Positions 802 through 61,649 of a stretch of DNA of 64,000 nucleotides are shown one piece after another. Below the pieces are notes generated by a model that had not been told where the DNA came from, did no database searches, and saw only the letters and a program-made list of their open reading frames with translations. Source of the stretch: Flexilinea flocculi (GTDB lineage Bacteria > Chloroflexota > Anaerolineae > Anaerolineales > Anaerolineaceae); the NCBI RefSeq assembly GCF_001192795.1, contig NZ_DF968181.1, forward strand, positions 151,603-215,602. The letters run 5' to 3'. Numbering within the stretch: the stretch's first letter is position 1; every line of letters starts with the position of its first letter. The translations under genes were made by a program, and so were the position numbers.

Positions 802-924
802 TCGCAATTCGAAATTTAAATTTACTTTTGGAGTCAATCAAGAAAATTTGTTATTCTTATGGTTTTACACGAAGTGCAAAACCGTACGAACAGCTATGAA
901 TTCTTTTCCTATTTTGAATAACTG
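802..924. repeat. MITE-like palindromic repeat, 123 bp
   Basis: Full-length copy of the dispersed palindromic family. The left end is TCGCAATTCGAAAT and the right end ATTTTGAATAACTG. The central imperfect hairpin has arms ATTCTTATGGTTTTACAC and GTGCAAAACCGTACGAAC around a GAA loop. No clear target duplication remains. It lies about 100 bp upstream of the aldose epimerase gene. Confidence 0.75.
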
Positions 925-5281: not shown

Positions 5282-5399
5282 TTATATGCAATCCATAAAA
5301 AAGAGTCAATTACAGGTATTCGAAATATGAAATGGATTCTATGTTGTGGTGTTGTTTTTGCCCGGAACGTAAAAACAATATAGCTATTCGTTGGAAAAT

Positions 5400-5524
5400 C
5401 GTCAATTTGAAATATTCGCAGAATTTATTTTTGTTCTTATGGTTTTGCGCAAAGCGCAAAACCATAAGAACAAAAAATTTTTTCTCTCTCTATTGGTAAT
5501 GCATATTTATATTTCAAATTACTG
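5400..5524. repeat. MITE-like palindromic repeat with a perfect 23-bp stem
   Basis: Copy of 125 bp. The stem 5428-5450 pairs perfectly with 5454-5476 around an AAA loop (arm end GGTTTTGCGC). Terminal repeats are CGTCAATTTGAAAT and ATTTCAAATTACTG. A decayed second copy seems to lie at about 5314-5399, with a CAGGTATTCGAAAT left end. Confidence 0.8.
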
Positions 5525-11596: not shown

Positions 11597-11719
11597 CAGT
11601 AATTCGAAATATGAAAAGAATTCTTTGTTGTTCTTATGCTTTTACACAAAGCGCAAAACCATAAGAACAACAAGTTTTCTTCCTTTATTTGAAAAGCCAA
11701 TCCAAATTTCGAACTGCTG
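11597..11719. repeat. MITE-like palindromic repeat, 123 bp, with target duplication
   Basis: Ends CAGTAATTCGAAAT and ATTTCGAACTGCTG are inverted repeats. The outer flanks GTCGTAATT (11588-11596) and GTCGTAATA (11720-11728) match at 8 of 9 bases, a target duplication. The central hairpin arms are TTGTTGTTCTTATG and CATAAGAACAACAA. Confidence 0.88.
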
Positions 11720-12909: not shown

Positions 12910-13058
12910 AGGAAGATTCAAGTATTCTTAAATTACGGATAGTTTTTCGTATATAGAACGGAAAATCGTTATTCTTTTATTTATTCTTTTTATGAACACC
13001 AAAAAGAATAATGATGAATCCACCTTATATTACGAACGATTAAGAAGGGTTAAAACGA

Positions 13059-14240: not shown

Positions 14241-14249
14241 CATGGGACA

Positions 14250-14430
14250 GGAGAGTGCTTCACCACGATGTGGCTCGCAATGACAAGAATCGATGCGCTG
14301 GCAATGACAAACCTTGCTACTTGTATAACTCGGCAATGAGAAGATTCACTGCAATCGGATTCACATGGTACTCTGTCTTTGCGAGGATGGTAGAAACCCG
14401 ACGAAGCAATCTATATTCAGTCTGTCATTC
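14250..14430. repeat. Degenerate REP-type repeats
   Basis: Decayed pieces of the GTCATTGCGAG repeat family (GTGGCTCGCAATGACAAG, TGGCAATGACAAAC, CTTTGCGAGGATGG, CGACGAAGCAATCT). No gene is seen between 14082 and 14424. Confidence 0.6.
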
Positions 14431-18111: not shown

Positions 18112-18234
18112 CAGTAAGTTGAAAAATGAACATAATTTTTTCAAATTGAGATCACAATGTTGTTGCGATTTTTTTTGCGCGAAACGGAAAAATAATACAA
18201 CAATAATTATGATTTTTCATATTTTGAATCGCTG
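18112..18234. repeat. MITE-like palindromic repeat, 123 bp
   Basis: Copy between the ATPase and binding-protein genes. Ends CAGTAAGTTGAAAAAT and ATTTTGAATCGCTG; decayed centre with TTGTTGCG against the ACAACAA side. No clear target duplication. Confidence 0.65.
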
Positions 18235-20608: not shown

Positions 20609-20805
20609 TGTTTATTTGTAGTGTAAATGATTTTTATTAACTTGTAAATAAATAAAAGTCACAGAATATTTTGTGCAAATGTCATGATTCAAGTTCTTTT
20701 GTACGAATGGAACCTCTTAAAAATTTCCAATAAACCAGATAAATTGGAAAGTTATCTTTTCTCATTTGATGGAAGATTGCTTTCCTTTGAGGGGCTTGCA
20801 CGGCT

Positions 20806-20856
20806 GTCTGTCATTGCGAGGAGGCGTTAGCCCGACGAAGCAATCTGTTTTCATGG
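20806..20856. repeat. REP-type repeat
   Basis: One REP unit with TGTCATTGCGAGGAGGCG, AGCCCGACGAAGCAATCTG and surrounding remnants. It directly adjoins, and may have displaced, the left arm of the MITE-like element that follows. Confidence 0.7.
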
Positions 20857-20867
20857 CGAATAAAGAA

Positions 20868-20950
20868 GGAAAATTTGTTGTTCTTATGACTTTACCCTTC
20901 GCGTAAAACATAAGAACAACAATGAATTCTTTTCATATATCGAATTGCTG
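20868..20950. repeat. MITE-like palindromic repeat, left end lost
   Basis: The hairpin TTGTTGTTCTTATG ... CATAAGAACAACAA and the right end TATATCGAATTGCTG are preserved; the left terminal repeat is missing and REP sequence stands in its place. About 50 bp upstream of dnaE. Confidence 0.7.
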
Positions 20951-25036: not shown

Positions 25037-25110
25037 TGAAGCGTAAATTTGCAGTTAATCTGCAAAGAACACTTTGGCATATCGATTCAAAAAAAGGAAA
25101 GGTTTATGGA

Positions 25111-25152
25111 ATATTCTGTTGGATTTACGCTTGGCGCAAATCCAACAGAATG
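25111..25152. repeat. Hairpin related to the MITE-like centre
   Basis: ATTCTGTTGGATTTACGC and GCGCAAATCCAACAGAAT pair except at one position, around TTG, and are followed by GAATTCTC as in full-length copies. The stem sequence differs from the other copies but keeps its complementarity. Recognisable terminal repeats are absent. Confidence 0.6.
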
Positions 25153-25362
25153 AATTCTCTTCATTTTTCATGTCTTCTCGAAATTTCCATTCATTGATTT
25201 CGGCCTTACGGGATTGTGACAATCCGATCCCAATAGCCTCATTGATCCACTCATCGTAAAACATGTTTAATAATTATTTCAATGTCATAAACCAAACTGG
25301 TAGAAATCGCGATTTATTTTTTTTGTAATATGATTTTTTGAATGTAAAATGGATAATAATAT

Positions 25363-25442
25363 GAGCGATTCGTAATGTGATATGAATTCTTTGTAATTTT
25401 TCTTGATTGATTCGAAAGATCAGTTCGTATTTCGAATTGCTG
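25363..25442. repeat. MITE-like repeat lacking the central hairpin
   Basis: Ends GAGCGATTCGTAAT and ATTTCGAATTGCTG, total 80 bp; the central stem is gone. The flanks TAATAATAT and AAGTAATAT agree at 7 of 9 bases. About 55 bp upstream of pfkA. Confidence 0.7.
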
Positions 25443-26497: not shown

Positions 26498-26619
26498 CAG
26501 TAAATCGAAATAAAAAAAATTTGTATGGTGTTCTTATGGTTTTGCGCGAAGCGCAAAACCATAAGAACACCATATTTTCTTTCTTTATTCGAAAAGCCAA
26601 TCCACATTTGGAATTGCTG
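26498..26619. repeat. MITE-like palindromic repeat with a perfect 24-bp stem
   Basis: Best-preserved hairpin: 26524-26547 pairs without mismatch with 26551-26574 around GAA. Ends CAGTAAATCGAAAT and ATTTGGAATTGCTG. Flanks GATAAGAAC (which includes the pfkA stop) and GAAAAGAAT match at 7 of 9 bases. Confidence 0.88.
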
Positions 26620-26674
26620 GAAAAGAATTCAGAGGGGGAAAACATATTCCGCCTCTTTTTTTTATCACGTGCCA

Positions 26675-26785
26675 GGAGATTGCTTCGCCCTTGCTGGGCT
26701 CGTAATGACAAATATCGCCTCAGTATGGCTTGCACGGCAATCTGTCATTGCGAGGAGGGCATACGACCGACGAAGAAAATTTTTC
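26675..26785. repeat. REP-type repeats
   Basis: Two REP pieces: AGGAGATTGCTTCGCCC with GGCTCGTAATGAC, and GGCAATCTGTCATTGCGAGG with CGACGAAGAAAAT. The interval 26494-27222 holds only these, the MITE-like element and the promoter region of the next gene. Confidence 0.65.
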
Positions 26786-27222
26786 TCATGTGCCATCAGG
26801 CGTAACAAGATTGTGCCATCGCAGGGATGAAGCAATTGTTATCAAAACTGGTGGATTGGATTTCAATTGGATTTCTTGATAAGTTGCGAATAGGTAAGGA
26901 TATGCTTTGCCAGTGTTTCGAAATATCCTTGATTTTCACAAAACGTCCTTAGATCATTGAATTGCTGAATCTTAATCAGAATGGCAAAGAAAAATAGAAT
27001 AATCTTGCTTCAGCAAACAATTCGTTTTTACTTATCATGTGAATTGAATCATTGAAAAAGTATTATCAAAATTTATAGCAGATATGACTTTTGTCATGAT
27101 CGAATTCGTGATTGATTTTATTCCAATCTTTTGTCCTTGCGGATTAAAATTATGATTATCTGTCTTAGTAAACCCATTTACCCGGGGTACCAATCAACGT
27201 TTGATCTAATTAGGAGATAAAA

Positions 27223-30959: not shown

Positions 30960-31107
30960 ATGGTAGTAATGGGAATTCTTGGACTCCTTATGCGAGAAAA
31001 GAGAGGAACCTTGTCGTTGTGATATTTTTGCGCTACACGGAATAACGCGACGCAATAACGAATAACTCTCCTCGTATTTCGAATCGTTGGATGAAAGGAA
31101 ATTTTTC

Positions 31108-33962: not shown

Positions 33963-34404
33963 TGATAGTTTTTGCCAGTCCATTCCACATAAAATACTAC
34001 CTGAGTTTCTCACTTTTAGCAAAAAAGACCATTTTTACGCTCAGAATAAGAGTTTTCAGGACGCTAATTCGGGACACTCATGAGTATCCACATGACAATT
34101 TGTCATTGCGAGGAGGGCTTAAGCCCGACGAAGCAATCTTTTTTCGCATGGAAATCTTTCCTTAATGTGGCTAGGAGATTGCCACGCCCCTGTGGGGCTC
34201 GCAATGACAGGATTCCCACGGCAATCTGGTTTTACGAGGAGGGAAGCTGAGTTTCTTGCTTTTTGAATAATAGTCCCTATTTAGTCTCAAATTTGGAGAT
34301 TCCAGGACACTAATTCGAGAAACTCAGGTGAAAAGTCGTTCAAAATTTCAACTTGCTGGAACTACCTGATAGTTTTTGCCAGTGCATCCCACATAAAATA
34401 GTAC
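33963..34404. repeat. Second composite REP island with 38-bp flanking direct repeats
   Basis: TGATAGTTTTTGCCAG-type repeats at 33963-34000 and 34367-34404 (35 of 38 identical) flank an island. The island has two boundary repeats (about 34001-34070 and 34249-34325, reverse orientation relative to the island at 2083-2622) enclosing REP units (34097-34140 and 34180-34245, with TTGTCATTGCGAGGAGG and GGGGCTCGCAATGACAGG). No gene lies between 33799 and 34585. Confidence 0.8.
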
Positions 34405-38463: not shown

Positions 38464-38871
38464 ATGGAAGCACCACGTCATTGGCGTTTGAAAAAACAGC
38501 GATATTCACTGACCGGTGAGGTTTGTCCTCATTGCAGTGCAAAAATCTTTCCGCCGCGGGATGTGTGCCCGGAATGCGGTCAGGAAGCAAAAACAGCATT
38601 TCAATTCAGTGGAAAAGGTGAAGTATTTTCCTATACCACCATCAATGATGCACCGTCTGGCTATCAGGAACAGGCTCCTTATGCGGTGGCATTGGTCAAG
38701 TTGAATGAGGGCCCGATTGTCACAGCCCAATTAACCGATCTGGGAGCAGAACCAGTGCGCATCGGGATGCCGGTGGAAATGGTGACACGGCGGATCAAAG
38801 ACGATGGCAACGAACGCGGCGTTATTTTATACGGGTATAAGTTCCGACCGGTGATTGCCGGTCCGCGGTAA
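38464..38871 (+). CDS. Zn-ribbon OB-fold protein (DUF35)
   Basis: Acyl-CoA-channel partner protein of 135 residues. The N-terminal zinc ribbon has four cysteines in CPHCSAKIFPPRDVCPECG, then an OB fold (GKGEVFSYTTIND, APYAVALVKLNEGP) ending YGYKFRPV. In the archaeal complex this family bridges thiolase and HMG-CoA synthase and passes the CoA pantetheine between them. The last 28 coding bases of its conserved end (38828-38855) recur at 42789-42816, across the accessory island. Confidence 0.9.
   Translation: MEAPRHWRLKKQRYSLTGEVCPHCSAKIFPPRDVCPECGQEAKTAFQFSGKGEVFSYTTINDAPSGYQEQAPYAVALVKLNEGPIVTAQLTDLGAEPVRIGMPVEMVTRRIKDDGNERGVILYGYKFRPVIAGPR
38828..38855. repeat. Island-flanking direct repeat, copy 1 (28 bp)
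   Basis: TATACGGGTATAAGTTCCGA followed by CCGGTGAT, inside the DUF35 gene. Identical to 42789-42816. The 3.96 kb between contains the integron integrase and the restriction-modification genes. Confidence 0.9.
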
Positions 38872-38896
38872 TAACTTTTAAAGTAAAAACAATAAA

Positions 38897-38928
38897 AGCG
38901 TTCTCCCAACCAGGAGAACGTTTTTTTT
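38897..38928 (+). terminator. Terminator of the mevalonate operon
   Basis: CGTTCTCC and GGAGAACG with a six-base loop and eight T's. Confidence 0.9.
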
Positions 38929-38950
38929 GTTTGGCTCTCAAAAATGATTG

Positions 38951-39924
38951 TCAATCCAGCGGACTTCGTACCGCCTTCGGTCCGCGGTTGAGGACATGAG
39001 TGTAAATCATCGTGGTTTTGACATCTTTATGCCCAAGCAGTTCCTGCACTGTACGGATATCATAACCTGCCTCAAGCAGATGGGTAGCAAAGCAGTGACG
39101 GAAAGTGTGAGGGCTAACCGGTTTATCGATTTTTGCCAGCTTTGCGGCTGCTCTGACCGCCCTTTGAAGCCCGCTGGGATCCAGATGATGGCGGCGCACG
39201 ATACCGCTGCGTGGATCGATTGACAGGCGATCAGATGGGAAAATATATTGCCAGGGAATTCTTTATCTGCATTGGGATATTTGCGAGCTAGTGCAAAGGG
39301 AAGTTCCACCGAGCCATATCCTTGCGCCACGTCCCGTTCATGGATTTTTCGAACAAAGCCGATTTGATCCTTCAGGGACTGCACCAGGCTGGCTGGCAGC
39401 ATGGTTGCGCGATCTTTTTCGCCTTTCCCTTCCCGAACGATGATCTGAGATTGCTCGAAATCAATATCCTTCACGCGCAAACGCATACATTCCATCAGGC
39501 GCAGACCGCAACCGTAAAGCAGCTTTGCCATTAATTGATGCACCCCCTGCATCCCTGAAAGCACACGAATGGTTTCATCTTTCGACAAGACAGTTGGCAA
39601 GTATTCGCAAGGTTTGGCGCGCAGTGCATGGATCGGAATAGCAATATCCATTTGCAGTACATTTCGGTATAGAAACAACAGGGCATTCAACGCCTGGTTC
39701 TGGGTAGAGGCAGACATATTTTCATCTTTGGCCAGGTGGGTGAGAAAGGCTTCAATTTCTGCAGCACCCATTTCAGCCGGATGGCGTTTGTTATGGAACA
39801 GGATATACCGTTTTGCCCAGTGTACATAGGTTTTCTCGGTGCTGTAGGAGTAATGCTTCAGACGGATTGCATCACGAATCTGGTCGAGTAATTTTCTCGA
39901 TTTTGGAGTTGATTGATCGTTCAT
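38951..39924 (-). pseudogene. intI: Integron integrase, frameshifted
   Basis: Tyrosine recombinase of the IntI type (attC x attI recombination), about 324 residues when both frames are joined. N-terminal SAM-like domain: YSYSTEKTYVHWAKRYI and FLTHLAKDENMSASTQNQALNALLFLY. Catalytic domain: arginine in LLYGCGLRLMECMRLRVKDID, then beyond the break [30 protein letters not shown] and tyrosine in [12 protein letters not shown]. Near 39248-39254 the frame shifts after EFP; one missing base restores [17 protein letters not shown] and [11 protein letters not shown]. Either a real inactivating deletion or a sequencing error. The gene faces away from the cassette-like genes, as in integrons. Confidence 0.88.
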
Positions 39925-40187
39925 AAATGTTAGTTTTCAAAAGGTGATTGTGTATAATATTAAAAGAATGGGGGCGTTGCATGTTTGAGATAATCAAGTG
40001 TAATTGCAGTATAACATACATTTTATGATTGGATATACGGTGTAATTGCAGCGTATCAGAAGTCCGTATAATTAATAGTTGGCAAGCCCCTTACACAATT
40101 GGCATATAAAAACGGGGAGTTCCTCAATCTCTGATTTTCAGCCATTTTCCTACTATAATTTATTGGTAGAAATGGAGAATTCCCAAA

Positions 40188-41408
40188 ATGGCTCGTAATA
40201 GTCAACTAATTTCGGAAGAAAGAGAATATTTAGTAATAAATGTTCAACAAGCCAAAGATATTGTAAAGGATTGGCTTTCAGAGATTGATCTTGTTCACGT
40301 TACAAAACTTGGCTTGCCAGAAGTTGACGACAGATACCATTATTGGCGTGTTCCTGTATGCGTCAAAAATGGCGAAAAAATTGGCGAAGTTGTAATTGAC
40401 GCTTACAGTACCGAAATTATTCACTCTAAAACTACAAAGCCTGAAATCTTAACGGCTCGTTTGCTAAAGCAGGACGAATCGAAAATTATTGAGAAAAAGC
40501 AGAGTAAAAGGGAATACAGATTATCGAATCTCAGAAATACTGTCGGTTTTGGAGATTCGGCACATTTCCTTGAAGAAATGCCTGCCGAAAGCGTGGATTT
40601 AATTTTCACTTCGCCGCCTTACTACAATGCTCGTCCTGAATATTCAGAATATGAAGAATATGACGAATATCTTTTCAAAATGCGCCAAATTATTAGAAGA
40701 AGTCATAGGGTATTAGCGGAAGGAAGATTTTTTGTCATTAATGTATCCCCCGTTTTATTACGCCGTGCTTCAAGAAACGAATCATCAAAAAGAATTGCCG
40801 TTCCATTTGACTTCCACAGGATATTTATTGAAGAAGGTTACGATTTTATTGACGACATAATCTGGTTAAAGCCAGAAGGCGCAGGCTGGGCTACTGGACG
40901 TGGACGGCGATTTGCCGCAGATAGAAACCCTTTGCAATATAAGGCTGTGCCTGTGACCGAATATGTTTTAGTTTATCGAAAGCGCACCGATTTACTAATT
41001 GACTGGTTTATTAGAAATCATCCTGACAAACAAGTTATAGAAGATTCTAAAATACCTGATGGTTACGAAAAAACAAATGTTTGGAAGATAAATCCATCAA
41101 CAAATTCTAAACATCCAGCCGCTTTTCCGAAAGAATTGGCTGAAAAAGTGATACGGTATTATTCTTTCAAAGGCGATGTAGTTTTAGACCCGTTTGCAGG
41201 CTCTGGCACTGTTGGGAGTGCTGCATCAGGATTAGGTAGAAGGTTTGTTCTTTTTGACAATAACCCTGATTACATAGAAATAATCCGAGAAGAGATTAAG
41301 TCTTGGAAAAACGTCAATTTGAACAATGTAATGTTTATAAATTGCGAGCCCGTTAAACCCATTCATAAACAGTTAGATTTGTTCAAGGCGGAGAAACATG
41401 ATAATTGA
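40188..41408 (+). CDS. Type II DNA methyltransferase, beta class
   Basis: Restriction-protecting methyltransferase, 406 residues, probably N4-cytosine or N6-adenine. The amino-modifying motif [12 protein letters not shown] (motif IV, about residue 140) precedes the AdoMet motif [19 protein letters not shown] (about residue 334), which is the beta-class order. An extra N-terminal region of about 110 residues is not assigned. A TATAAT box lies 35 bp upstream and GGAGAATTCCCAAA is the ribosome site. Its 3' end overlaps the next gene by 11 bp. Codon use is more AT-rich than that of the neighbouring metabolic genes, as expected of acquired DNA. Confidence 0.88.
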
Positions 41409-42579
41409 CGATTTATTTCCTGAAAAAGGAAAGTTGGTTCTGACCGCAAACGGTAAAGAATTTATCGAAAGACTTGGCGTAGAAACCGCACGACAGGTTA
41501 TTCTTGCTGTGTTGCGGGGCGAAAATATTCGCACACAGACCGAGCCTTTAACACGCCGCCGAGTAGCAATCGCTACGGGTGCGATGGTTTATTTGTTTGC
41601 AAAGGGATGGGCAGAAATTGATAACTTCACAGAGAATTTGTCTGCCTTTGCGCTTGAACAAATGGATAATACGCCTCAATCGAAAAAAGATACATTTTGG
41701 CCAGCACAGTGGCTTATTGGATTAACAGGAAAAAGTATCCAAAATGTTCTGCGAAGCAATCCAGAATTACGCCAAAGTTATATTCAAGATTTTGAAAATG
41801 CTGTAGAAGAAGCCGCCAGAAGGTGTGAAGAAGATTTTGGCGAAATTTCAATGAGTCTTGGTTATGTTGTTGATGGAGAATTACGGCAAAGTGTCAGTGC
41901 TTTGAATTGGAAAGATTTAACACGCCTAACTACTGCAATTGGTGCAACGACTTTGACAATTCGTGGTTCTGAAAAATCCACTTACGGAAAATTATTTGAG
42001 CGTTTGATAATGGGGTCAGTTCTAACGATTCTTGGCTTTGAGCATGTAGAAAACTCCCAAAGTCCAAAGATAGAAAGAGTATTTTGGTTGTCCGATAGTT
42101 CGGATGTGAGAGAATGCGACGCCACGATTAGATTACGCCCTGGGAAATTAGCAAGATTTGACATCGGCTTTATTGGCAAAGGCAATCCCGAAATCATGAA
42201 AGACAAATTAACACGATATGCCAATGAAGTCGAGCAGAACGGAACAGCAAACTTTTCACAGACTTTTATTATTGTGGACAAAATGCCCGATACTACAAAG
42301 ACGATTGAAGCCGCTAAAAAATCTGGCAGTGAGATTATTCAAATGAGTATGCAATTTTGGGCTTTAGAGTTAGCTAAACGTCTAAAAGCCCGACTTGGTT
42401 ATAGTGCTGAAATACTATCTGTCCCAGAAGATGAATTAAGTGATTATATCGAGCAAAAACTACAACCTGTTCCAATATTGAATTTTCTCAATCCGACAAA
42501 TACAAGAATTCAAGTAATACGGGAAGAAGCGCAACCCTATTTAATTTCAGAAGATGAAGAAGATTTTGAAGATGAATAG
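41398..42579 (+). CDS. Type II restriction endonuclease, possibly CfrBI-like
   Basis: Protein of 393 residues coupled to the methyltransferase by an 11-bp overlap, so almost certainly its cognate nuclease. [27 protein letters not shown] at the N-terminus (in two blocks) and [21 protein letters not shown] in the centre resemble, to my recollection, the CfrBI family. The region [23 protein letters not shown] with Glu, Asp and later Lys residues could be the nuclease core. The family name needs a profile search; the role as restriction partner rests mainly on the operon. Confidence 0.75.
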
Positions 42580-42610
42580 AGACTCTTAAAATGGCAAAAG
42601 AGTCTTGCAG

Positions 42611-42751
42611 TCAAAAGGCTTGCCAACATTGCGGGCAGGCGGACGGGCGGGGACGTTGCCCCGCCCAAAGGGATTCAGCCCCTTCAAGCATTTTCTACCT
42701 TTGGCTTTTTCCAGCCAACTCCCCCGCCCGCCGCTAACGTAAGCCATTAGA
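42611..42751. repeat. Candidate attC site 1 (about 141 bp)
   Basis: Follows the restriction gene by 31 bp. The outer arms TCAAAAGGCTTGCC (42611) and GTAAGCCATTAGA (to 42751, reading TCTAATGGCTTAC in reverse) pair imperfectly, as do the GC-rich inner arms GCGGGCAGGCGG and CCGCCCGCC. A perfect GGGCGGGG/CCCCGCCC hairpin lies within. The right end TAACGTAAGCCATTAGATT resembles that of the second site. The layout fits an integron cassette end, but the core GTTRRRY is not strict. Confidence 0.5.
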
Positions 42752-42788
42752 TTAACGCTTTCACTTCCACAACGCGGACCGAGTCGGA

Positions 42789-46400: not shown

Positions 46401-46520
46401 CAAGCGTTTTGTAATTTTGCAGCACCTTTTGCAAAGAGAGAAAATTTATTATTGTTGTCTTTTTGTTCTTTGTGAAAAACGCACAATAATTAATAATTCT
46501 TTCTAAATTTTGAATTGCTG
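46401..46520. repeat. MITE-like repeat, decayed
   Basis: The right end AATTTTGAATTGCTG is clear. The centre TTATTGTTGTCTTTTTGTTC ... GAAAAACGCACAATAA is imperfect and the left end is degraded. A further right-end fragment lies at about 46330-46355. Confidence 0.55.
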
Positions 46521-47169: not shown

Positions 47170-47207
47170 CAACAATTCGAAAAGTCAATGCATATTTCGA
47201 AATGCTG
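47170..47207. repeat. Short (38-bp) MITE-like repeat with perfect 9-bp target duplication
   Basis: CAACAATTCGAAAAG joined through TCAATGCAT to ATTTCGAAATGCTG, flanked on both sides by TATAACATT (47161-47169 and 47208-47216). It is the cleanest evidence that these sequences insert with 9-bp duplications. Confidence 0.85.
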
Positions 47208-47417
47208 TATAACATTCATATGATCCAGAAGACTTATCATTTTAATCAGTCAAAAATAGCATCAAACCACTGACCTATGACCGATCTATTTGGTCCGCGC
47301 CAAAGTGGAAAAACTACTCATGCGCGGCAATTCGATCAAATCACGCTTCGTCTTCAGAATCGAATTTTGCACCTTTCTGTAGTTTGAATCGTAATCCATA
47401 GTGTGGTGCATCTGAAT

Positions 47418-47541
47418 CAGCAATTTAAAAATTTGAAAAGTTTTTTGAGAAATAAGAGAAAACTTGTTGTTGTGTTGCTTTTGCGCGAAGCGCAAAAGCA
47501 ACACAACAACAAATAATTTTTTCCCATACTTCGAATCGCTG
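47418..47541. repeat. MITE-like palindromic repeat with a perfect 23-bp stem
   Basis: Stem 47464-47486 pairs perfectly with 47490-47512 around GAA. Its arm reads TTGTGTTGCTTTTGCGC where the copy at 26498 has GTTCTTATGGTTTTGCGC. Flanks CATCTGAAT and CATCAGAAT match at 8 of 9 bases. Confidence 0.9.
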
Positions 47542-47583
47542 CATCAGAATCAAATCAAAAGGAAAAGAGTTGAGGTAGATCCA

Positions 47584-48189: not shown

Positions 48190-48355
48190 TATTTCAGCTT
48201 TAAAAAAATCCATAAAATAAATGTCCGGAACAACAACAAAGAATCCTTCCCAATTTTCAAATTGCTGCAACGAAAACCAGTTCATCATTTCTTTTGTGGT
48301 ATAACGAATACGCTTAGTTGTTATTGGAATGAGCGTTATCTGAATTGTCCAAAAA

Positions 48356-48464
48356 CAACAATTCGAAATATAGACCTGCTATTCGAATCAGGCGTGAAAA
48401 ACCTGGTGCTAGGAAACGCAAAGATATCAGCATTAATGAATGTTCCCCATTTTTCGAATTGCTG
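48356..48464. repeat. MITE-like repeat, variant centre
   Basis: Ends CAACAATTCGAAAT and TTTTCGAATTGCTG over 109 bp, with an internal TATTCGAATCAG and no large hairpin. Flanks GTCCAAAAA and GTTCAATAT match at 6 of 9. A further right-end fragment lies at about 48228-48267. Confidence 0.6.
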
Positions 48465-50298: not shown

Positions 50299-50469
50299 CT
50301 TGTTTATTGATTCTCCTTATTCGTAAAATTGGCAGGTTGTGACGCATTCATGTACCGAATTTTGATTGTCAGCAACAAATCCTGTTTCTCTCTGCCTGTC
50401 TCGATTCCCTTCATCATTCATTTTACCAAAAATCCTGATGCCCTGACCTGTTCTTCGGCCAGCAAATCA

Positions 50470-50596
50470 AAATAAGAGAAGGATTATTTTTTATTGAATT
50501 TGCGTGAAGAGCAAAAACATAATAGCAAATAATTTCTCTCATAATTTGACAAGCCAACCGAAATTCGAAAGATCAGTCTGCCTTTCGAATAGCTAT
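50470..50596. repeat. MITE-like repeat, decayed
   Basis: Centre GAATTTGCGTGAAGAGCAAA and right part GACAAGCCAACCGAAATTCG with terminal CTTTCGAATAGCTA. Left end unclear. Confidence 0.5.
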
Positions 50597-51372: not shown

Positions 51373-51496
51373 CGGAAATTCGAATTCCAGATTTTCTATT
51401 CGAACCAAATGGGAATAACTTGTTATTGTGATGTTTTTACTCTTTCCGTAAAAACATCACAATAAGATAGAATCCTGCGCTTATTTGGAATTGCTG
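51373..51496. repeat. MITE-like palindromic repeat with a perfect 18-bp stem
   Basis: 51423-51440 (TTATTGTGATGTTTTTAC) pairs perfectly with 51448-51465 around TCTTTCC, yet another arm sequence. Ends CGGAAATTCGAATT and TATTTGGAATTGCTG. Flanks agree at 6 of 9. Confidence 0.75.
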
Positions 51497-52074: not shown

Positions 52075-52160
52075 CTGCAATTGGGAATAGTGAATTGTTT
52101 TTTACAAAGCGCATAAAACAATTCAACAACGAATAATTCTTCCAATATTTTGAATTATTG
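52075..52160. repeat. MITE-like repeat with target duplication (86 bp)
   Basis: Begins CTGCAATTGGGAAT and ends TTTTGAATTATTG, with GAATTGTTTTTTACAAAGCG and AAAACAATTCAACAAC pairing in the centre. Flanks CATGCGATT and CATGCGATC match at 8 of 9 bases. It lies between the GyrI-like and AraC genes. Confidence 0.8.
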
Positions 52161-52211: not shown

Positions 52212-53096
52212 ATGAATGAACCGCTTGAATCAATTTATGATGCGATAGAGTTCTTCGAAGATCATCTATATGAAAATGTAACTGTTGCGCAAACCGCAGA
52301 TTTCATTGGATATTCCTTATTTCATTTTATCCGCATGTTCAACCGGATAGTTCATCATACACCTTATGATTATCTGATTCGCCGTCGTTTGAGCGAGTCT
52401 GCTCGTATCTTAACGAACAGTCATCGCCGGATTACGGATATTGCCCAGGATTTCTGTTTTCAAAACCAGGAAAGTTATTCTCGTGCATTTAAACGGATGT
52501 TTGATATGCAGCCAAGCCAATGGCGTGAGGAAGCGCCATCAGAGGAATTCGTGCTGATGCCTAAGATAACCTTAGCCGATTTAGCTTTTCGCAACAGTGA
52601 TTTTTTTCGTTCTCCTGAATTGTTTATTTGGAGTGAAACCCGATATCAGGGGTTGATGACAAAAATCATAGAGGATAAAAATGGGTTGCAGGAATGGGAA
52701 AATTCACTTGCTGCTGATCTGAAAAATTGCCTTTCCGATGTCAGTGCCTCACCGCAGGTAACGATAACGTTTTCGGTCAATTCAGATTGGAGGAATCGGT
52801 ATGAATTCATCGGCATTGAAAAGCATAAAAACCAAAGGCAAACTCTGAATTTAGTCGAACGAATTGTTCCTGCAGGAAATTATGCCGGAATCTTTTATCC
52901 GGTGGATTTTTTCAAGGAAGCGCGAACCTACCTGTTCTTTACATGGTTTCCGGCTGTCTGCTGCCGCGCAACATGCCACGAATTTTTCTTGCTTTCTTTT
53001 TCGGTCTTATCCTCTCAAGGAAGGCAACTCTTTGTTCCCGTTGTTATCTCAGAAAAATCAAATATCCGATTGAAGGATTCCCGTGCAGCAATCTGA
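52212..53096 (+). CDS. AraC family regulator with GyrI-like effector domain
   Basis: Regulator of 294 residues. Two helix-turn-helix units fill residues 8-105 (VTVAQTADFIGYSLFHFIRMFNRIV, and ITDIAQDFCFQNQESYSRAFKRMF with the usual QPSQWR end). Residues 120-280 form a GyrI-like domain (FIWSETRYQGLMTKI, VPAGNYAGIFYPV, ARTYLFFTWFPAV). The C-terminal tail after the last beta strand (FVPVVISEK) is longer than usual, but I see no need for a frameshift. It may respond to the ligand of the neighbouring stand-alone domain. Confidence 0.85.
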   Translation: MNEPLESIYDAIEFFEDHLYENVTVAQTADFIGYSLFHFIRMFNRIVHHTPYDYLIRRRLSESARILTNSHRRITDIAQDFCFQNQESYSRAFKRMFDMQPSQWREEAPSEEFVLMPKITLADLAFRNSDFFRSPELFIWSETRYQGLMTKIIEDKNGLQEWENSLAADLKNCLSDVSASPQVTITFSVNSDWRNRYEFIGIEKHKNQRQTLNLVERIVPAGNYAGIFYPVDFFKEARTYLFFTWFPAVCCRATCHEFFLLSFSVLSSQGRQLFVPVVISEKSNIRLKDSRAAI

Positions 53097-53134
53097 AATC
53101 CGGATTGATTTATCGAATCAATCCAGAAAATTTG

Positions 53135-55741
53135 TTATTCTTTTTTCGTAAGTATTTGAACACATCCTTTTCCTCCATCCACTCGAACCCTGTCACCCGT
53201 TTCCAATCGCATGGTTGCATCTTTACAGCCCACGACAGCCGGAATGCCCAGTTCACGGGCGACAATGGCTGCATGACTGAGCGGAGCGCCAAGATCGGTA
53301 ACGATTGCTGCTGCTCTTGGGAAGAGCGGTGTCCAGCCAATGTTGGTCATCGTTGTCACCAGGATTTCACCAGTCTGAAATTGACTGCTTTCTTCAAACG
53401 AATTCAATTTGCGAACAGTACCCTCGACGATACCCAGCGCTCCGGCAAATCCATGAAGCGTATCAGAATGGTCCGGATTTCCAATTTCTGCGACACGTTG
53501 AGTTTGCGCATCGTATACATCCGTTCTTCGATTAGGATCGGAGCCCCAGGTGAACGGATCAAATCGGCCGCAGATCAATGCTGGATAAGGCGGCAGAGCA
53601 CAATATTGTTGAAAGGTCTCTTTTCGGATCGGAATCAGCGCCATAACGTTAGAATTTTCTCGACCGGACAAAAGTTCTAATACTTCGTCAATCGTCAGGT
53701 AAAAAATTTCATCTGCAATTCCAAGCAAGCTGCCTGCACGAAGCGCAAACGTTCGTAACACGGTCATGCAGCGTGTCGCTTCTGATCGAACTGCTTCCCG
53801 CTGATATGCAGCTTTTGCAGCCTGGAAGATCCTTTTTTGGAAAGGTGATGCCTGACGTGGATTCTGGCTGCTGAATCGCTGCCAGGCTTTGTCAAATGCG
53901 TTTTTCTGTTGTTGCCGCAATACGTCCAAATTAACAGGATTCTTTTCCCATTCTTCCAACTGCGAATCAAGCCATTTCGGATCTTCTGCCGGGCGTGGCC
54001 AGGCCGCTTCACCTTCATTCACGCCGCGATGTCCATACGCTTCCATATAAGCTTCCTGTGTCATTTTTCCGTTCAGAATCATTCCCAATCCGATTGCCGG
54101 TCCCATACTTTCAAATTGCCCGGATAATCCGCTGAGATTGGACAGCAGCGCATTGACAACATCCGGATCGGCGTATTGAAGCAGATCCCGTTCCAGTTTG
54201 ACCTGCTGGTCGGATGCTGCAGCGACTACGTGAATCAAAGAATCCCGGTACAGCGGGAAAACCTCTTGATTCCATAGGTTCAGCAAACCCTCTTTTGTTG
54301 TCGTGTTCTTTATCTTGTTGTTGAGCTCTTTGCATCGTGCAGCATTTCCTGCAAGGAAGCGTTTTTCTTTTTTACGATAAGCAGCAAACATGCGGCTGGA
54401 TCGAAGTAATCCAGGAAGCACATTCTGACTCCATTCGGAACTGGTCAACGGAATGAGAGGAATTTCCAGATCTTCTGGAATCTCACCCCACCATCCTGAG
54501 ATTTCGCGATACGCACGATGTGCATCACCTTTGAAAAAACGCGCAAAAGCGGATACCTGTACGCTGATATTGGCATAAAACCTGCCGCCAATAATGCCAT
54601 TTAAAGAGTAGTTTTTCACCGATAGCGAAGGTCCGCCATGACCGTCCAGATATGAATGCAGCGATGCCGTAAAGGGCGTCAATACTTCCGGGCTTGCCTC
54701 CATCAGATTGGTCGCCGACCAAAGAAAATTTCCTTTATGCGAGTCGTTCCACACGCCACGGATCGGATCAAAATTGTTCAAGGTCGTTATGGGACGCGCT
54801 TGCAGAATGGCGACTTCCTTTCCTTTCGATGCCCATTCAATATCTTGCGGACACCCTGCTGCATTTTCAATTGCATGAGCGTATCTGTGCAGATTTTTAA
54901 TGATGGGAGCGATTTCTTCCGGACCATGATAGGATCCCTGCGGCCGGTCAATGCTGAATTCTGATGCAGAAATTTCTCCGGAAACCAGTTTTTCACCTAA
55001 TCCGCTTGTATAATTACCGGTCATTTGCGAAAGATTTCCTGTCAGCGGATTCACTGTAAATAATACGCCTGCAAAATCGGGCTGAATCATTTTTTGGATG
55101 ACAACAGCAATGGAATACTCATCATTCTGCAGCCCTTGTGCCAGACTGTAACTTTTTACACGCTGGCTGTGTCTGGATTTCAATACGGTTTGGATAGCTT
55201 CACGTATCTCCTGATCGGATCTTATATCCAATACACTTTCAAATTCTCCGGCAAAAGAGGCTTTTTGCGAATCCTCAACCGCTGCTGATGAACGAATTGC
55301 AAACGGAATGGTTTTCCCTTTCCTTAAACGGGTCAATTGTTCTCGTACAGCCTGCCATGCTTCTTCGCGCAGATCATCCTGAATAAAGGCTTCCGGCAAT
55401 AAAATGCAACCATCCGGAATCGGGTAACCGGATTGGAATAATTTCGCCAGGCTCAAACCTTTTCCGCCGGCTGCAGGTGCAAGGCTGGATTCAAGCGGGA
55501 AACTTCCGAAAGCATAGACCCCATGCGTATTGATTCGTTGATTTGCTTTTTGAAGTTGATTCAGCAGAAATACTGTCAGCCAATGAAACAACAGATTCCC
55601 CAGAGTTCCGGCTAACATGGACAGAATGACTAAGGAGAGTATGCTCTTAATCCCGCTAAAGCGGATAAAGGAAAGGGCAAATGCAGTGGCACCCAACCCA
55701 CTAATTATTTTCGTAATGATTTCTTGCTTAATTTTGTTCAT
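53135..55741 (-). CDS. Membrane-anchored PEP-utilising enzyme (PEP synthase / rifampicin phosphotransferase-like)
   Basis: Protein of 868 residues. Residues 1-65 hold two hydrophobic segments (IISGLGATAFALSFIRF; LVILSMLAGTLGNLLFHWLTVFLL), then an ATP-grasp dikinase N-domain (AAGGKGLSLAKLFQSGYPIPDG, IPFAIRSSAAVEDSQKASFAGEF). A middle substrate domain contains YGHRGVNEGEAAWPRP, and the C-terminal phosphohistidine domain carries His823 in GAPLSHAAIVARELGIPAVVG. It keeps the domain order of rifampicin phosphotransferase and PEP synthase but lacks the PEP/pyruvate barrel, so phosphoryl transfer to another acceptor is likely. The membrane anchor is unusual. Convergent with the AraC gene. Confidence 0.85.
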   Translation of the reverse strand: MNKIKQEIITKIISGLGATAFALSFIRFSGIKSILSLVILSMLAGTLGNLLFHWLTVFLLNQLQKANQRINTHGVYAFGSFPLESSLAPAAGGKGLSLAKLFQSGYPIPDGCILLPEAFIQDDLREEAWQAVREQLTRLRKGKTIPFAIRSSAAVEDSQKASFAGEFESVLDIRSDQEIREAIQTVLKSRHSQRVKSYSLAQGLQNDEYSIAVVIQKMIQPDFAGVLFTVNPLTGNLSQMTGNYTSGLGEKLVSGEISASEFSIDRPQGSYHGPEEIAPIIKNLHRYAHAIENAAGCPQDIEWASKGKEVAILQARPITTLNNFDPIRGVWNDSHKGNFLWSATNLMEASPEVLTPFTASLHSYLDGHGGPSLSVKNYSLNGIIGGRFYANISVQVSAFARFFKGDAHRAYREISGWWGEIPEDLEIPLIPLTSSEWSQNVLPGLLRSSRMFAAYRKKEKRFLAGNAARCKELNNKIKNTTTKEGLLNLWNQEVFPLYRDSLIHVVAAASDQQVKLERDLLQYADPDVVNALLSNLSGLSGQFESMGPAIGLGMILNGKMTQEAYMEAYGHRGVNEGEAAWPRPAEDPKWLDSQLEEWEKNPVNLDVLRQQQKNAFDKAWQRFSSQNPRQASPFQKRIFQAAKAAYQREAVRSEATRCMTVLRTFALRAGSLLGIADEIFYLTIDEVLELLSGRENSNVMALIPIRKETFQQYCALPPYPALICGRFDPFTWGSDPNRRTDVYDAQTQRVAEIGNPDHSDTLHGFAGALGIVEGTVRKLNSFEESSQFQTGEILVTTMTNIGWTPLFPRAAAIVTDLGAPLSHAAIVARELGIPAVVGCKDATMRLETGDRVRVDGGKGCVQILTKKE

Positions 55742-56084: not shown

Positions 56085-56272
56085 ATCTGTTTGGTATAAA
56101 TGTCAATCTGCAGTTAGTGATTCGGAATATGAAGAGAATTGCTTGATATTGAGTTGTTTTTATTAATCCGCGAAAAATAACAGGAAAACAGGTTTTTTCT
56201 CTTTTCTCAAGCGAGGTTTATAAATGTTAAATCGTTAATTAGGGGGTGAAAAAGAAGATGTTGGGAAAGAAT

Positions 56273-57446: not shown

Positions 57447-57576
57447 CAGTCTGATGGCAACCATTTGAGAAATGGTGAATTACTTATTGTCATATTTTTT
57501 TAGCGAAGCACAAAAACAACACGATAGCAAGTTTTCTTAATTGATTTTTAAGGATGATTTATCAATCGAATTGCTG
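57447..57576. repeat. MITE-like repeat, decayed
   Basis: The right end TATCAATCGAATTGCTG and the centre CTTATTGTCATATTTT ... AAAACAACACGATAGCAAG are visible; the left end is poorly preserved. About 110 bp upstream of the Mg2+ ATPase gene. Confidence 0.5.
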
Positions 57577-57686: not shown

Positions 57687-60281
57687 ATGAAACATTTTTT
57701 AATGAACAGAAAAAAAATGATTTCTCAGCAGCCATCAACCTTCGCAGAGATGACAGCCAACTATTGGAGTATCTCGCTTGATCAAGTATTGAAGGAATTG
57801 AACGCTTCTGTTGAAGGACTTCAGGCGAACGATGCATCTGCACGACTGAGCAAATATGGATTAAATACAATCCGGGTGAAGCAGCAGAATTCCATAGGGC
57901 GCATAATGCTGAATCAAATAAAGAGTCCATTGGTCCTGATTCTGATCTTTGCTGCCATTATTTCCGGAATTGTGGGTGAGTGGGTGGATGCTTTGATCGT
58001 TCTGGTTGTTGTTGCAGGCAGTACAATCCTCGGTTTTTCTCAGGAATATTCTGCCAGCGTGGCAATCGACAAATTGAGAAAACAGGTGACTATCAAATCG
58101 AATATTTTAAGAGATGGAAAATCGACGATATTGCCGTCTGAAAATGTGGTTCCGGGCGATGTTGTTTTACTGTCCGCAGGAAGTCTGATCCCTGCCGATG
58201 GAATTGTGTTGGAAGCAAATGACTTTTTTGTTAACCAGGCAGTACTTACTGGTGAGACTTTTCCTGTTGAGAAGAAACCGGGGATTGTTTCTGAAAATGC
58301 AAGTCTGGCAGAGCGGACAAATTGTGTTTTTATGGGGACCAATGTGAGAAGTGGTATTGCCAGGGTATTCATCGTTCAAACTGGTAAGGAAACGATATTC
58401 GGACAAGTAGCAGAAAGGCTGGTCTCAACTCCGCCAGAAACTGAATTCGAACACGGGCTGCATGAATTTGGCACACTGCTAACACAGATTATGATGGTAA
58501 TGGTCATTTCAATTCTTGCCCTTAATTTTTTCATGAATAAGCCATTTTTTGATTCTCTGCTCTTTGCATTGGCTTTGGCGGTTGGAATTTCTCCTGAATT
58601 ATTGCCGGCAATAACCAGTATCACCCTTTCACATGGGGCTAAAAAGATGAATGAACACGGTGTTATTGTTCGGCGGTTGAACGCGATTGAAGATTTTGGC
58701 AATATGGATGTTTTATGCACAGACAAGACCGGAACACTGACAGAGGGTGTCGTACATCTTGACAATGCGTTGGATATTTTTGGGAATTCATCCAAGGATG
58801 TTCTTCGATATGCCATGATTAATGCTCATTTTCAAACCGGATTGGATAATCCTCTGGATGAAGCGATTCAACAGGCAGCCCAAGACGCCGGAATCGATAT
58901 CCAGGATGAACAGAAAATCAGCGAAATCCCGTATGATTTTGTGCGTAAATCTTTAAGTATTGTTGCCGAAAATAAACAAAGGCAAAGATTTCTGATTACG
59001 AAAGGTGCGATGGACAGGATTCTTCCGGCTTGTGAAAGTGTTCAGTTCGGTTCCGATACGATACCATTGGATGCTGCTACCCGCGATTCAATCGAAAAAA
59101 AATTTGGTGACTGGAGTGAAGAAGGTTTTCGCGTTCTTGGTTTAGCAATCAAGGAAGTGGAAAAACAAACGGATTCCTATACCTATAAAGATGAACATGC
59201 AATGACTTTGATCGGTTTTCTTCTTTTCCTTGACCCACCGAAAACGGATGTTGAGCAGACAATCGAGGAATTAAAAAAACGTAATGTGCAGATAAAAATA
59301 ATCACTGGGGATAATGCAAAAGTCGCCAAACATGTCGCCAATCATTTACATATACCTGTTCAGAACATCATCACTGGAAGTGACTTGAATAAACAAAATG
59401 ATCAAGTGTTATGGCATCTTGCTGAAAGTGCGACAATTTTTGCCGAGATGGATCCCAACCAAAAAGAACGAATTATTCACGCCCTTCGAAAGACTGGCCA
59501 TGTTGTCGGATATATGGGTGACGGCATTAATGATGCTCCTGCGTTAAGGTCGGCTGATATTGGAATTTCTGTAGATACAGCTGTGGATGTTGCGAAAGAT
59601 GCTGCGGATTTCGTATTACTCAGGAAAGATTTGTCGATTTTACAGAAAGGGATCGATGAAGGGAGGAAAACATATGCTAACACGCTAAAATATATTCTCA
59701 CTACCATCAGCGCAAATTTTGGTAATATGATCAGCATGGCAGGAATTTCAGTTTACCTGCCATTTTTGCCTTTGCTTGCATCCCAAATCCTTTTAAATAA
59801 TTTCCTTTCAGATTTTCCCGGGCTGACCATTGCAAGTGACAATGTAGATTATGAAATGATTGAAAAACCAAATCATTGGAATACAAGGTTTATTCGCAAT
59901 TACATGATCCTTTTCGGGTTGACAAGTTCCATTTTTGATTTTCTGACATTTGGCGTTTTATTATTCTTTTTTCATGCACAACCGGATGAATTTCGAACAG
60001 GCTGGTTCATTGAATCTTTACTGACAGAGTTGGTGATTGCACTGGTTGTCAGGACCCGTCGTCCCTTTTTCCACAGCCGTCCGGGAAATCTGCTCTTAGC
60101 AAGTTCGTTATTCTTTATTGGATTAACTCTGGTGATTCCCTATATCCCATTTCTTAAAATATTTCGCTTCGTCCCGCTGCCGATTCCATTATTAATGGCA
60201 TTGATCGGGCTGACGATGGTTTATGTCTTGGCTACGGAATCTGTAAAAAAGCTTTTTTTTACAAAAATTGCAAAACAATAA
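57687..60281 (+). CDS. mgtA: Magnesium-translocating P-type ATPase
   Basis: P-type ATPase (type IIIB, Mg2+ import) of about 864 residues. The actuator loop includes VLTGETFPVEKK and the phosphorylation site is Asp in CTDKTGTLTEG (about residue 350). Nucleotide-binding KGAMDRILPAC and the hinge GDGINDAPALRSADIGISV are clear. LLNNFLSDFPGLTIASDNVD is characteristic for the MgtA branch, and ten membrane segments are predicted. GGAGG lies six bases before the ATG at 57687; an ATG one codon earlier is also possible. No M-box is evident upstream. Confidence 0.93.
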   Translation: MKHFLMNRKKMISQQPSTFAEMTANYWSISLDQVLKELNASVEGLQANDASARLSKYGLNTIRVKQQNSIGRIMLNQIKSPLVLILIFAAIISGIVGEWVDALIVLVVVAGSTILGFSQEYSASVAIDKLRKQVTIKSNILRDGKSTILPSENVVPGDVVLLSAGSLIPADGIVLEANDFFVNQAVLTGETFPVEKKPGIVSENASLAERTNCVFMGTNVRSGIARVFIVQTGKETIFGQVAERLVSTPPETEFEHGLHEFGTLLTQIMMVMVISILALNFFMNKPFFDSLLFALALAVGISPELLPAITSITLSHGAKKMNEHGVIVRRLNAIEDFGNMDVLCTDKTGTLTEGVVHLDNALDIFGNSSKDVLRYAMINAHFQTGLDNPLDEAIQQAAQDAGIDIQDEQKISEIPYDFVRKSLSIVAENKQRQRFLITKGAMDRILPACESVQFGSDTIPLDAATRDSIEKKFGDWSEEGFRVLGLAIKEVEKQTDSYTYKDEHAMTLIGFLLFLDPPKTDVEQTIEELKKRNVQIKIITGDNAKVAKHVANHLHIPVQNIITGSDLNKQNDQVLWHLAESATIFAEMDPNQKERIIHALRKTGHVVGYMGDGINDAPALRSADIGISVDTAVDVAKDAADFVLLRKDLSILQKGIDEGRKTYANTLKYILTTISANFGNMISMAGISVYLPFLPLLASQILLNNFLSDFPGLTIASDNVDYEMIEKPNHWNTRFIRNYMILFGLTSSIFDFLTFGVLLFFFHAQPDEFRTGWFIESLLTELVIALVVRTRRPFFHSRPGNLLLASSLFFIGLTLVIPYIPFLKIFRFVPLPIPLLMALIGLTMVYVLATESVKKLFFTKIAKQ

Positions 60282-60342
60282 AATAACAGTCTTTCTCTCT
60301 TTATTAGGAAAAATTCCTTTTTTCGAATTGCTGTTTTCTTAG

Positions 60343-61649
60343 GTTGGTGTAACATATTTTCTGTAAAATAAAGAACCTTAACAAAAGAGGTGAGTCAGAA
60401 GTATCCTTATAGTAACCAAACCATAAAAGGAGACTAGAAATGACTCACCCAAATAATTATACCTTTGCAGAGGAAATAGCGGAAAAAGGATTGGAAGCAA
60501 TTCCAGAAATGATGCGAGTGCTGATAAATAACGCCATGCAAGTAGAAAGATCAAGGTACTTACAAGCTGAACAGTACGAACGCACAAAGGATCGCAAGGG
60601 ACATGCAAATGGTTTCAAACCGAAGACGATACAGACCAGGATAGGAAACATTACCTTTGCAGTTCCACAGGTTAGAGAGGGTGGTTTTTATCCCAGTGCT
60701 CTGGAAAAGGGACTGCGAAGTGAAAGAGCCCTTACGATCACACTGGCTGAAATGTATGTACAGGGAGTATCGACTCGGAAGGTAAAAACCATTACGGAAC
60801 AGCTTTGTGGGATTGAGGTCTCAGCCACACAAGTCAGCCGGGCAACAGCGCAATTGGACGAAGTACTGCAAGAATGGCGTGAAAGGCCATTAGGAGAGAT
60901 CAGCTATCTCTTTGTGGATGCCCGATATGAGAAGATTCGTGAAGCAGGACAAGTAAGAGATGCAGCGGTTTTGGTGGCCTCTGGCATTACGCCAGAAGGC
61001 GAACGGCAAATACTTGGGGTTTCAGTTTCGCTTAGTGAGCATGAAACACATTGGAAAGCATTTTTAAAGAGTCTAAAAGAGCGAGGGTTACACGGAATAA
61101 AGCTGATTATCAGTGATGACCATGAAGGTCTAGGGGCAGCCAGAAGAGCAGTTTTTGGCGGTATTCCCTGGCAACGGTGTCAGTTCCATCTGCAACAGAA
61201 TGCCGGAGCTTATCTGCCCAGACAATCGATGAGATTGGAAGTGGCAGCAGACATCAGAGCCATATTTAATGCTCCTGATCGAAAGACAGCAGAAGAGCTC
61301 TTGCAGAGCGCCATCCAGAAGTATGCTATTTCTGCTCCGCGGCTTTCATCTTGGCTCGAAAATAACCTTTTTGAGGGTTTTTTGGTTTTTGATTTTCCAT
61401 TGGAACATCGAAGAACGATACGAACAACCAATAGTCTGGAGAGGATTAATAAAGAGATTCGCAGACGGACAAGAGTGGTTGGTGTGTTTCCAAATCAAGC
61501 TTCTTGTCTCAGGTTGGTCTCGGCATTACTGATGGAGACCTGCGAAGAATGGCAGATCGGAAAACATTTTTGTACTGGCAAGTTTATGAATTCTTAAAGA
61601 TCTATGGATATTTCAGACTCTAATTTACAGAAAAAGGGTTGCATAATCC
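60343..61649 (+). mobile_element. IS256-family insertion sequence, complete (1307 bp)
   Basis: Imperfect terminal inverted repeats of about 25 bp share TTTTCTGTAAA (left at 60357-60367, right in reverse at 61623-61633). They are bounded by an exact 8-bp duplication TTTCTTAG (60335-60342 and 61650-61657), as usual for this family. It holds one intact transposase gene. It sits one base after the right end (CGAATTGCTG) of a MITE-like fragment. Confidence 0.93.
60440..61597 (+). CDS. IS256 family transposase
   Basis: Mutator-type DDE transposase of 385 residues. Catalytic residues: Asp in YLFVDARYEKIRE, Asp in IKLIISDDHEGLGAA, Glu in TTNSLERINKEIRRRT. KRKGHANGFKPKT-like N-terminal text here reads DRKGHANGFKPKT, and QCRFHL is represented by QRCQFHLQQNA. 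AAGGAGACTAGAA precedes the ATG. No internal stop, so likely active. Confidence 0.95.
   Translation: MTHPNNYTFAEEIAEKGLEAIPEMMRVLINNAMQVERSRYLQAEQYERTKDRKGHANGFKPKTIQTRIGNITFAVPQVREGGFYPSALEKGLRSERALTITLAEMYVQGVSTRKVKTITEQLCGIEVSATQVSRATAQLDEVLQEWRERPLGEISYLFVDARYEKIREAGQVRDAAVLVASGITPEGERQILGVSVSLSEHETHWKAFLKSLKERGLHGIKLIISDDHEGLGAARRAVFGGIPWQRCQFHLQQNAGAYLPRQSMRLEVAADIRAIFNAPDRKTAEELLQSAIQKYAISAPRLSSWLENNLFEGFLVFDFPLEHRRTIRTTNSLERINKEIRRRTRVVGVFPNQASCLRLVSALLMETCEEWQIGKHFCTGKFMNS

Follow-up and report, generated by a model that had tools for sequence, protein, structure and literature searches.

The 64-kb window analysed here (G000:C3:151603-215602) comes from a genome of 3.51 Mb in three contigs (G000) and carries 22 copies of a 123-bp palindromic element, as counted by profile matches at E ≤ 1e-3 with partial copies and fragments included (Table 1). 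The consensus has no gene of its own. Its palindromic core of 49 nt lies between a left end, CAGTAATTCGAAATATGAAAAGAATTC, and a right part that is longer and ends in CATATTTCGAATTGCTG; terminal inverted repeats of about 14–16 bp flank the hairpin core. The copy at 47418 (L117, 3342-3219) has none of its 23 stem pairs mismatched, and its fold compared with shuffles gives z scores of −6.2 as DNA and −7.4 as RNA. The neighbouring remnant at 47170-47207 apparently lost its hairpin by deletion between two ATTCGAAA repeats.

Table 1. Copies of the palindromic element and associated target duplications in the 64-kb window.
Feature	Position	Strand	Evidence
Full-length MITE, target duplication gone (2/9)	802..924	-	profile match and flank comparison
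Partial MITE copy	5313..5384	+	profile match
Full-length MITE, perfect stem, duplication 3/9	5400..5524	+	profile match, flank and stem comparison
Full-length MITE, subfamily A, absent at site in G010	11597..11719	+	E 1.3e-32; duplication 8/9
Decayed MITE copy	12930..13036	-	E 4.9e-05
Full-length diverged MITE, duplication 4/9	18112..18234	-	profile match and flank comparison
MITE copy without one end	20852..20950	-	profile match
Diverged MITE copy	25083..25187	+	profile match
80-bp MITE copy without hairpin core	25363..25442	+	duplication 7/9
Full-length MITE, perfect stem, absent at site in G010	26498..26619	+	E 3e-27; duplication 7/9
MITE copy, absent at site in G010, target duplication unscored	30979..31089	-	E 1.5e-16
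Diverged MITE copy	46404..46520	-	profile match
38-bp MITE remnant	47170..47207	.	9/9 duplication TATAACATT; 34/38 matched; 8-bp microhomology at junction
Left 9-bp target duplication of 47418 copy	47409..47417	.	8/9 match to 47542-47550
Full-length MITE of stem subfamily B with its 49-nt core perfectly palindromic	47418..47541	-	profile E 1.4e-28
Right 9-bp target duplication of 47418 copy	47542..47550	.	8/9 match to 47409-47417
MITE fragment	48225..48267	-	profile match
Diverged MITE copy, duplication 6/9	48356..48464	-	profile match and flank comparison
Diverged MITE copy	50460..50567	+	profile match
Full-length MITE, duplication 6/9	51375..51496	-	profile match and flank comparison
86-bp MITE copy	52075..52160	-	duplication 8/9
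MITE fragment	53086..53143	-	profile match
Diverged MITE copy	56116..56210	+	profile match
Diverged MITE copy, duplication 1/9	57460..57576	+	profile match and flank comparison
MITE fragment	60271..60333	+	profile match

Other features of the window include a segment at 38856-42788 that is missing from the collinear region of the same-genus genome G010; it encodes a tyrosine recombinase (39007-39924), an N4/N6 DNA methylase (40188-41408), and a CfrBI-like restriction endonuclease (41398-42579), and is probably a restriction-modification island. Another dispersed repeat that is also intergenic (TGTCATTGCGAGGAGGG...CCGACGAAGCAATCT) but looks unrelated to the MITE lies at 14249-14418, 26674-26787, and 34086-34215, with similar letters near 20800. 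Three interleaved direct-repeat families of 95, 109, and 81 nt, 86–96% identical, occupy 1955-2717, a segment largely missing in G010 (16 bp versus 745).

All 14 copies listed in an earlier note on this DNA were recovered among the 22 profile matches, some of them partly (25363 and 52075 as fragments), and eight window copies lie beyond that list (5313, 12930, 25083, 30979, 48225, 53086, 56116, and 60271). The note's statement that all copies end in one inverted-repeat motif was too strong: 34 window ends fall within two mismatches of the motif, but exact CAGYAATTCGAAAT occurs only twice, and several copies are fragments. Genome-wide, exact CAGYAATTCGAAAT ends are far above chance, numbering 230 in G000, 246 in G010, and 38 in the same-genus genome G003, with a reversed-pattern control giving 0 in each. 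A consensus search beyond the genome, which the note had recommended, matched 6 of the 61 genomes searched, all of them among the 14 same-genus genomes (G007 and G008 weakly, and G002 over 64 bases) and none among the 47 of other genera; copies in G010 reached up to 97% of the consensus. Separately, the G003 family (L032, L037, L040, L042, and L044) is more diverged, with the best copy at 84% to the consensus. A recurrent variant at L101:8980, L145:11506, L094:15738, and L004:1501-1618, in which the right end reads CGAACAGCAG and then ATGAAAGAA instead of ending in CTG, is perhaps a longer subfamily.

At the window density of 22 copies in 64 kb, a genome would hold about 1,200 copies, fragments included, which is an estimate only; first-look candidates numbered 540 and 670. 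Sampled stretches, among them the window, held 92 copies over 254 kb of G000 and 67 over 271 kb of G010, many of these stretches having been picked around known copies and many copies having been fetched as best query matches, which biases the sample toward well-preserved ones. When genes were predicted with a simple ORF rule, 25 of 145 copies shared more than 30 bp with one.

The five target duplications given in the earlier note are correct (47409/47542, 11588/11720, and 52066/52161 at 8/9; 26489/26620 and 25354/25443 at 7/9), and no clear duplication was found at six other copies listed there (802, 2/9; 5400, 3/9; 18112, 4/9; 57447, 1/9; 48356 and 51373, 6/9). After duplicate removal, 153 copies from G000 and 81 from G010 were available, of which 72 and 46, respectively, had recognisable ends and entered the flank test. 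Flank identity at k = 9 was.548 versus.290 shuffled in G000 (z 14.7) and.737 versus.306 in G010 (z 17.8). At every other length tried between 4 and 13, |z| stayed below 3, the largest value being 2.8 at k = 10 in G000. Flank identity is raised at 9 bp alone, and the note's proposal of scattered elements that lack a gene and duplicate 9 bp of target is borne out. Flanks matching at 4/9 or less surrounded 35 of the 72 G000 copies and 11 of the 46 G010 copies.

Most of the window has a collinear counterpart in G010. Eight window sites were compared with it, and at three of them G010 was judged to be empty. At 11597, 26498, and 30979, joined flanks, from which the element and one 9-bp copy had been taken out, aligned across the junction to G010 DNA lacking the element, with 1–2 bp gaps near the junction at 26498 and, at 30979, gaps of 8 bp and 5 bp. 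Joined flanks were tried at four sites, and the fourth, the 20851 copy, gave no usable junction alignment. The empty sites that the earlier note had suggested looking for in sister genomes therefore exist at three places in the window. Near 5400, 18112, and 57447, G010 likewise has element-like sequence, shared or independent, and near 802 the two genomes aligned ambiguously. The region 47170-47541 was rejected as a clean empty site in G010 because a spacer of about 200 bp is absent along with it.

A PF01609 search of G000, G010, and G003 led to three places. At L048 (G000:C1) lies an insertion sequence of 1,632 bp (L048:821-2452) with ends CAGCAATTCGAAAT and CAGTAATTCGAAAA, a 9/9 duplication (GCATTCTGT), and an open frame of 446 aa; a motif-free end scan restricted to duplications of 8–10 bp gave identical boundaries. 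A full-length insertion sequence sharing the ends of the short copies, another of the note's suggested checks, is thus present in the same genome with its own 9-bp duplication. The ends of the MITE and of this element agree at 14/14 positions on one side and 21/24 on the other, with no homology past about 24 bp. The fourth base is C at one end of the element and T at the other, and as MITE copies vary there, agreement at this base is weak support. The transposase gene is the sole match in the 14 same-genus genomes; it was not found in G010 (a draft, about 92% complete), which holds the best-preserved MITE copies.

An end scan of the 446-aa query and nine relatives recovered CAGCAATT ends with 9/9 duplications on Calothrix, Anabaena, Nostoc, and Saccharobesus plasmids and no ends for five of the nine. 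The transposases of these plasmid insertion sequences are 33–40% identical to that of the L048 element, and the elements share the octamer CAGCAATT and 9-bp duplications with it but differ after the octamer, reading CAGCAATTCTCATTTT or CAGCAATTATTGGT where the L048 element reads CAGCAATTCGAAAT; the search for MITEs beside them was one 115-bp end search of the plasmids only. Within the same class, a transposase match at E ≤ 1e-10 was present in 34 of 396 genomes, the host's own included. Among the best 14 other class loci, five ended in CAGCAATT or a near variant, four of them with a 9-bp and one with an 8-bp duplication; two others yielded implausible candidates only, and seven yielded none, several of the seven having little sequence on one side. 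Such ends, with 8–9-bp duplications, were found in 9 of the 23 distant relatives scanned.

D128, D216, and E344 are among the invariant columns when the query is aligned with six relatives (seven sequences in all) and, judging from this conservation, may form the catalytic triad of a DDE transposase. Pfam scores for the query were below the gathering thresholds for both PF13808 (20.6 versus 32.3 bits) and PF01609 (19.2 versus 23 bits), and DDE_Tnp_1 was just above the cut-off for the Calothrix relative. A PDB profile search returned nothing meaningful, and NCBIfam returned no family at E ≤ 1. With NCBIfam empty and Pfam below cut-off, the L048 element is filed under no named IS family. Members of the ISAs1 family combine DDE_Tnp_1_assoc with DDE_Tnp_1 and have ends starting with CAGGG and 8–10-bp duplications; the L048 element was not assigned to this family, its ends being CAGCAATT/CAGTAATT rather than CAGGG and no curated NCBIfam transposase model matching it. 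A Gloeothece relative, whose ends were unrecognised, is annotated as 'ISNCY family transposase', ISNCY being a bin of unclassified elements.

The 446-aa transposase probably moved the hairpin copies, and we propose, with high confidence, that the MITE family was inserted in trans by this DDE transposase or a close relative and that the hairpin then drove change. The transposase would bind the CAGYAATTCGAAAT ends, and the short copies would be inserted in trans through a staggered cut of 9 bp. Once a copy is in place, its hairpin may drive further change: template switching during replication would copy one arm onto the other and flip the 3-nt loop, and slippage between short direct repeats would delete the hairpin in some copies, leaving remnants between the target duplications made at insertion. 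It is very improbable that the mover was another of the genome's transposases, either the IS256-type of the window or that of another PF01609 element. Candidates do exist, namely an IS256-type transposase (PF00872 protein) at 60440-61597, an IS1634-type element at L046, and a further PF01609 protein at L047 of G010, where the contig begins inside the gene and one end is missing. However, the IS256-type ends read AGGTTGGTGTAACA and are unrelated to those of the MITE, as the earlier note had said, and no end pair resembling the MITE's flanks L046; both were rejected as partners on these grounds. Least probable of all is that recombination or gene conversion, without a transposase, spread the copies as fixed chromosomal repeats. 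Many copies are old and lack duplications and some sites are filled in both G000 and G010, as such spread would have it, but the 9-bp duplications, the element-free G010 DNA at three sites, and the L048 element, with its matching ends and its open transposase gene, all contradict it. The 9-bp duplications, the element-free sites, the autonomous partner with matching ends, and the ends of its relatives thus identify the palindromes as a new MITE family, a kind of element already known; the earlier observation is confirmed, and its interpretation is supported in its main parts.

The hairpin itself was analysed in the 135 copies with an ungapped 49-nt core out of 177 with long coverage (42 excluded), each placed in stem subfamily A (GTTCTTATGG) or B (GTTGTGTTGT). 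Counts of double changes preserving Watson–Crick pairing were 54, 66, 8, and 44 in the four combinations of genome and subfamily, versus 11.5, 20.4, 0.7, and 6.8, respectively, in shuffles. When pooled with the innermost pair omitted, 169 double changes were complementary and 43 were not, versus 16–24 and 33–59 (about 20 and 46) in controls slid by 1 to 3. Double-change types seen once were complementary in 49 cases and not in 25, where one third is expected (p 8e-9), though shared ancestry is not fully removed from this count. At most one mismatched pair was present in 63 of the 135 stems and at least 10 in 21, and two perfect palindromes carried 8 and 7 paired changes (L008:683-803 and L030:1401-1499). 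The terminal repeats of the same elements showed no paired excess, with 14 matched doubles versus 19.6 expected (71 copies) and 4 versus 10.9 (46 copies). Loop orientation was set by flank length in 95 copies, with 7 ambiguous ones dropped, giving TTC 33/GAA 18, TTT 11/AAA 7, AGA 5/TCT 3, and TCC 4/GGA 1, with rarer loops of 1–3 copies each.

Template-switch mutation in hairpins, as described in two reports, homogenises arms and inverts loops (PMC8794818, PMC8604942), a pattern that the MITE hairpins resemble. Alternatively, the hairpins could be a functional structured RNA or a selected DNA motif, such as a terminator, an RNase III site, or a protein-binding site, with the compensated changes reflecting function. 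Stem pairing is retained through double changes, the RNA fold of the 47418 copy lies far below its shuffles, and in REPINs common compensatory changes were read as a sign that hairpin capacity is critical (PMC3116915). We nevertheless regard function as unlikely, although a selected role at the DNA level may still exist. In copies between co-directional genes, G-T (34) and A-C (35) mismatches in transcript orientation are nearly equal, giving no sign of G-U tolerance; loops are found in both orientations, and the window has no Rfam match at gathering thresholds. Moreover, the 145 copies lie between co-directional (90), divergent (39), and convergent (16) gene pairs, which hold 60, 25, and 15% of intergenic bases, respectively, so that placement is roughly proportional to intergenic length. 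A further account, that the arms are homogenised during transposition through self-repair of a hairpin or single-strand intermediate rather than in chromosomal replication, draws on the family's mobility and on the position of the stem between the ends used by the transposase. It seems more doubtful still: 13 of 22 end-deficient copies (at least 6 nt missing from the model match) keep compensated pairs (36 compensated pairs, 115 mismatches), which possibly predate the loss. Template switching at the hairpin appears to fit best, ahead of RNA function, and we place at about even odds the broader proposition that the hairpins are a genome-wide natural record of replication template switching, with pairing and loop flips produced by mutation alone and without RNA function.

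Hairpin loss is a distinct outcome. Short end pairs with a duplication of at least 7/9 numbered 19 of 110, versus 0.68 expected. Among six short copies examined, two of 38 bp fit deletion between ATTCGAAA repeats with 8-bp microhomology, and those of 73 and 77 bp fit deletion between TTCTT repeats (5 bp). Microhomology was 0 and 1 bp in the 75- and 55-bp copies, respectively, and repeat-mediated deletion is therefore not general. The 38-bp elements were rejected as independently mobile units, deletion remnants being preferred because both junctions lie on 8-bp repeats and the target duplications are intact.

REPIN/REP sequences with RAYT are not known to make a target duplication, and a REPIN/REP identity was rejected on the 9-bp duplications and the DDE-type transposase. 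PMC3116915 describes REPINs as extragenic hairpin repeats with common compensatory changes, as here, and ties them to RAYT tyrosine transposases, whereas the present MITE goes with a DDE-type transposase and 9-bp duplications. Bacterial MITEs such as Correia, ERIC, and Chunjie, as reviewed in PMC10969869, are alike in being short, gene-less, and mostly intergenic, with inverted-repeat ends, direct-repeat flanks, and truncated remnants, and reach hundreds of copies (711 ERIC copies in Photorhabdus luminescens). The present family differs from them in its ends, in its partner transposase, and in its restriction to one genus among the 61 genomes searched. The Nezha MITE of cyanobacteria, for which citing papers name ISNpu3-like elements as the proposed mover (PMC3049150, PMC3733652, PMC10969869), likewise joins a MITE to an IS partner, and cyanobacterial relatives of the L048 transposase exist. 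The template-switch reports share arm homogenisation, compensated multi-base changes, and loop inversion, including ttc/gaa, but concern rRNA genes and yeast coding genes (PMC8794818, PMC8604942), whereas 135 stems of a MITE family are involved here. Among the open-licence papers listed by literature searches, no title or abstract opening described this MITE family or template switching in MITEs.

The family is ordinary in kind but unusually complete, bringing the MITE, its probable transposase, and element-free sites together in one package. It also points to a group of insertion sequences that is marked by CAGCAATT or near-variant ends and an 8–9-bp duplication and has members in cyanobacteria, in one gammaproteobacterium, and in the class of the host. 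The compensated, loop-flipping hairpin is the unusual part and is worth specialist attention, as it can readily be used to test whether mutation alone is able to produce covariation in DNA palindromes, a question that bears on structured-RNA prediction. If template switching alone is responsible, strong covariation, the usual sign of functional RNA, would arise without selection, and hundreds of independent copies would let the rate and tract length of the process be measured.
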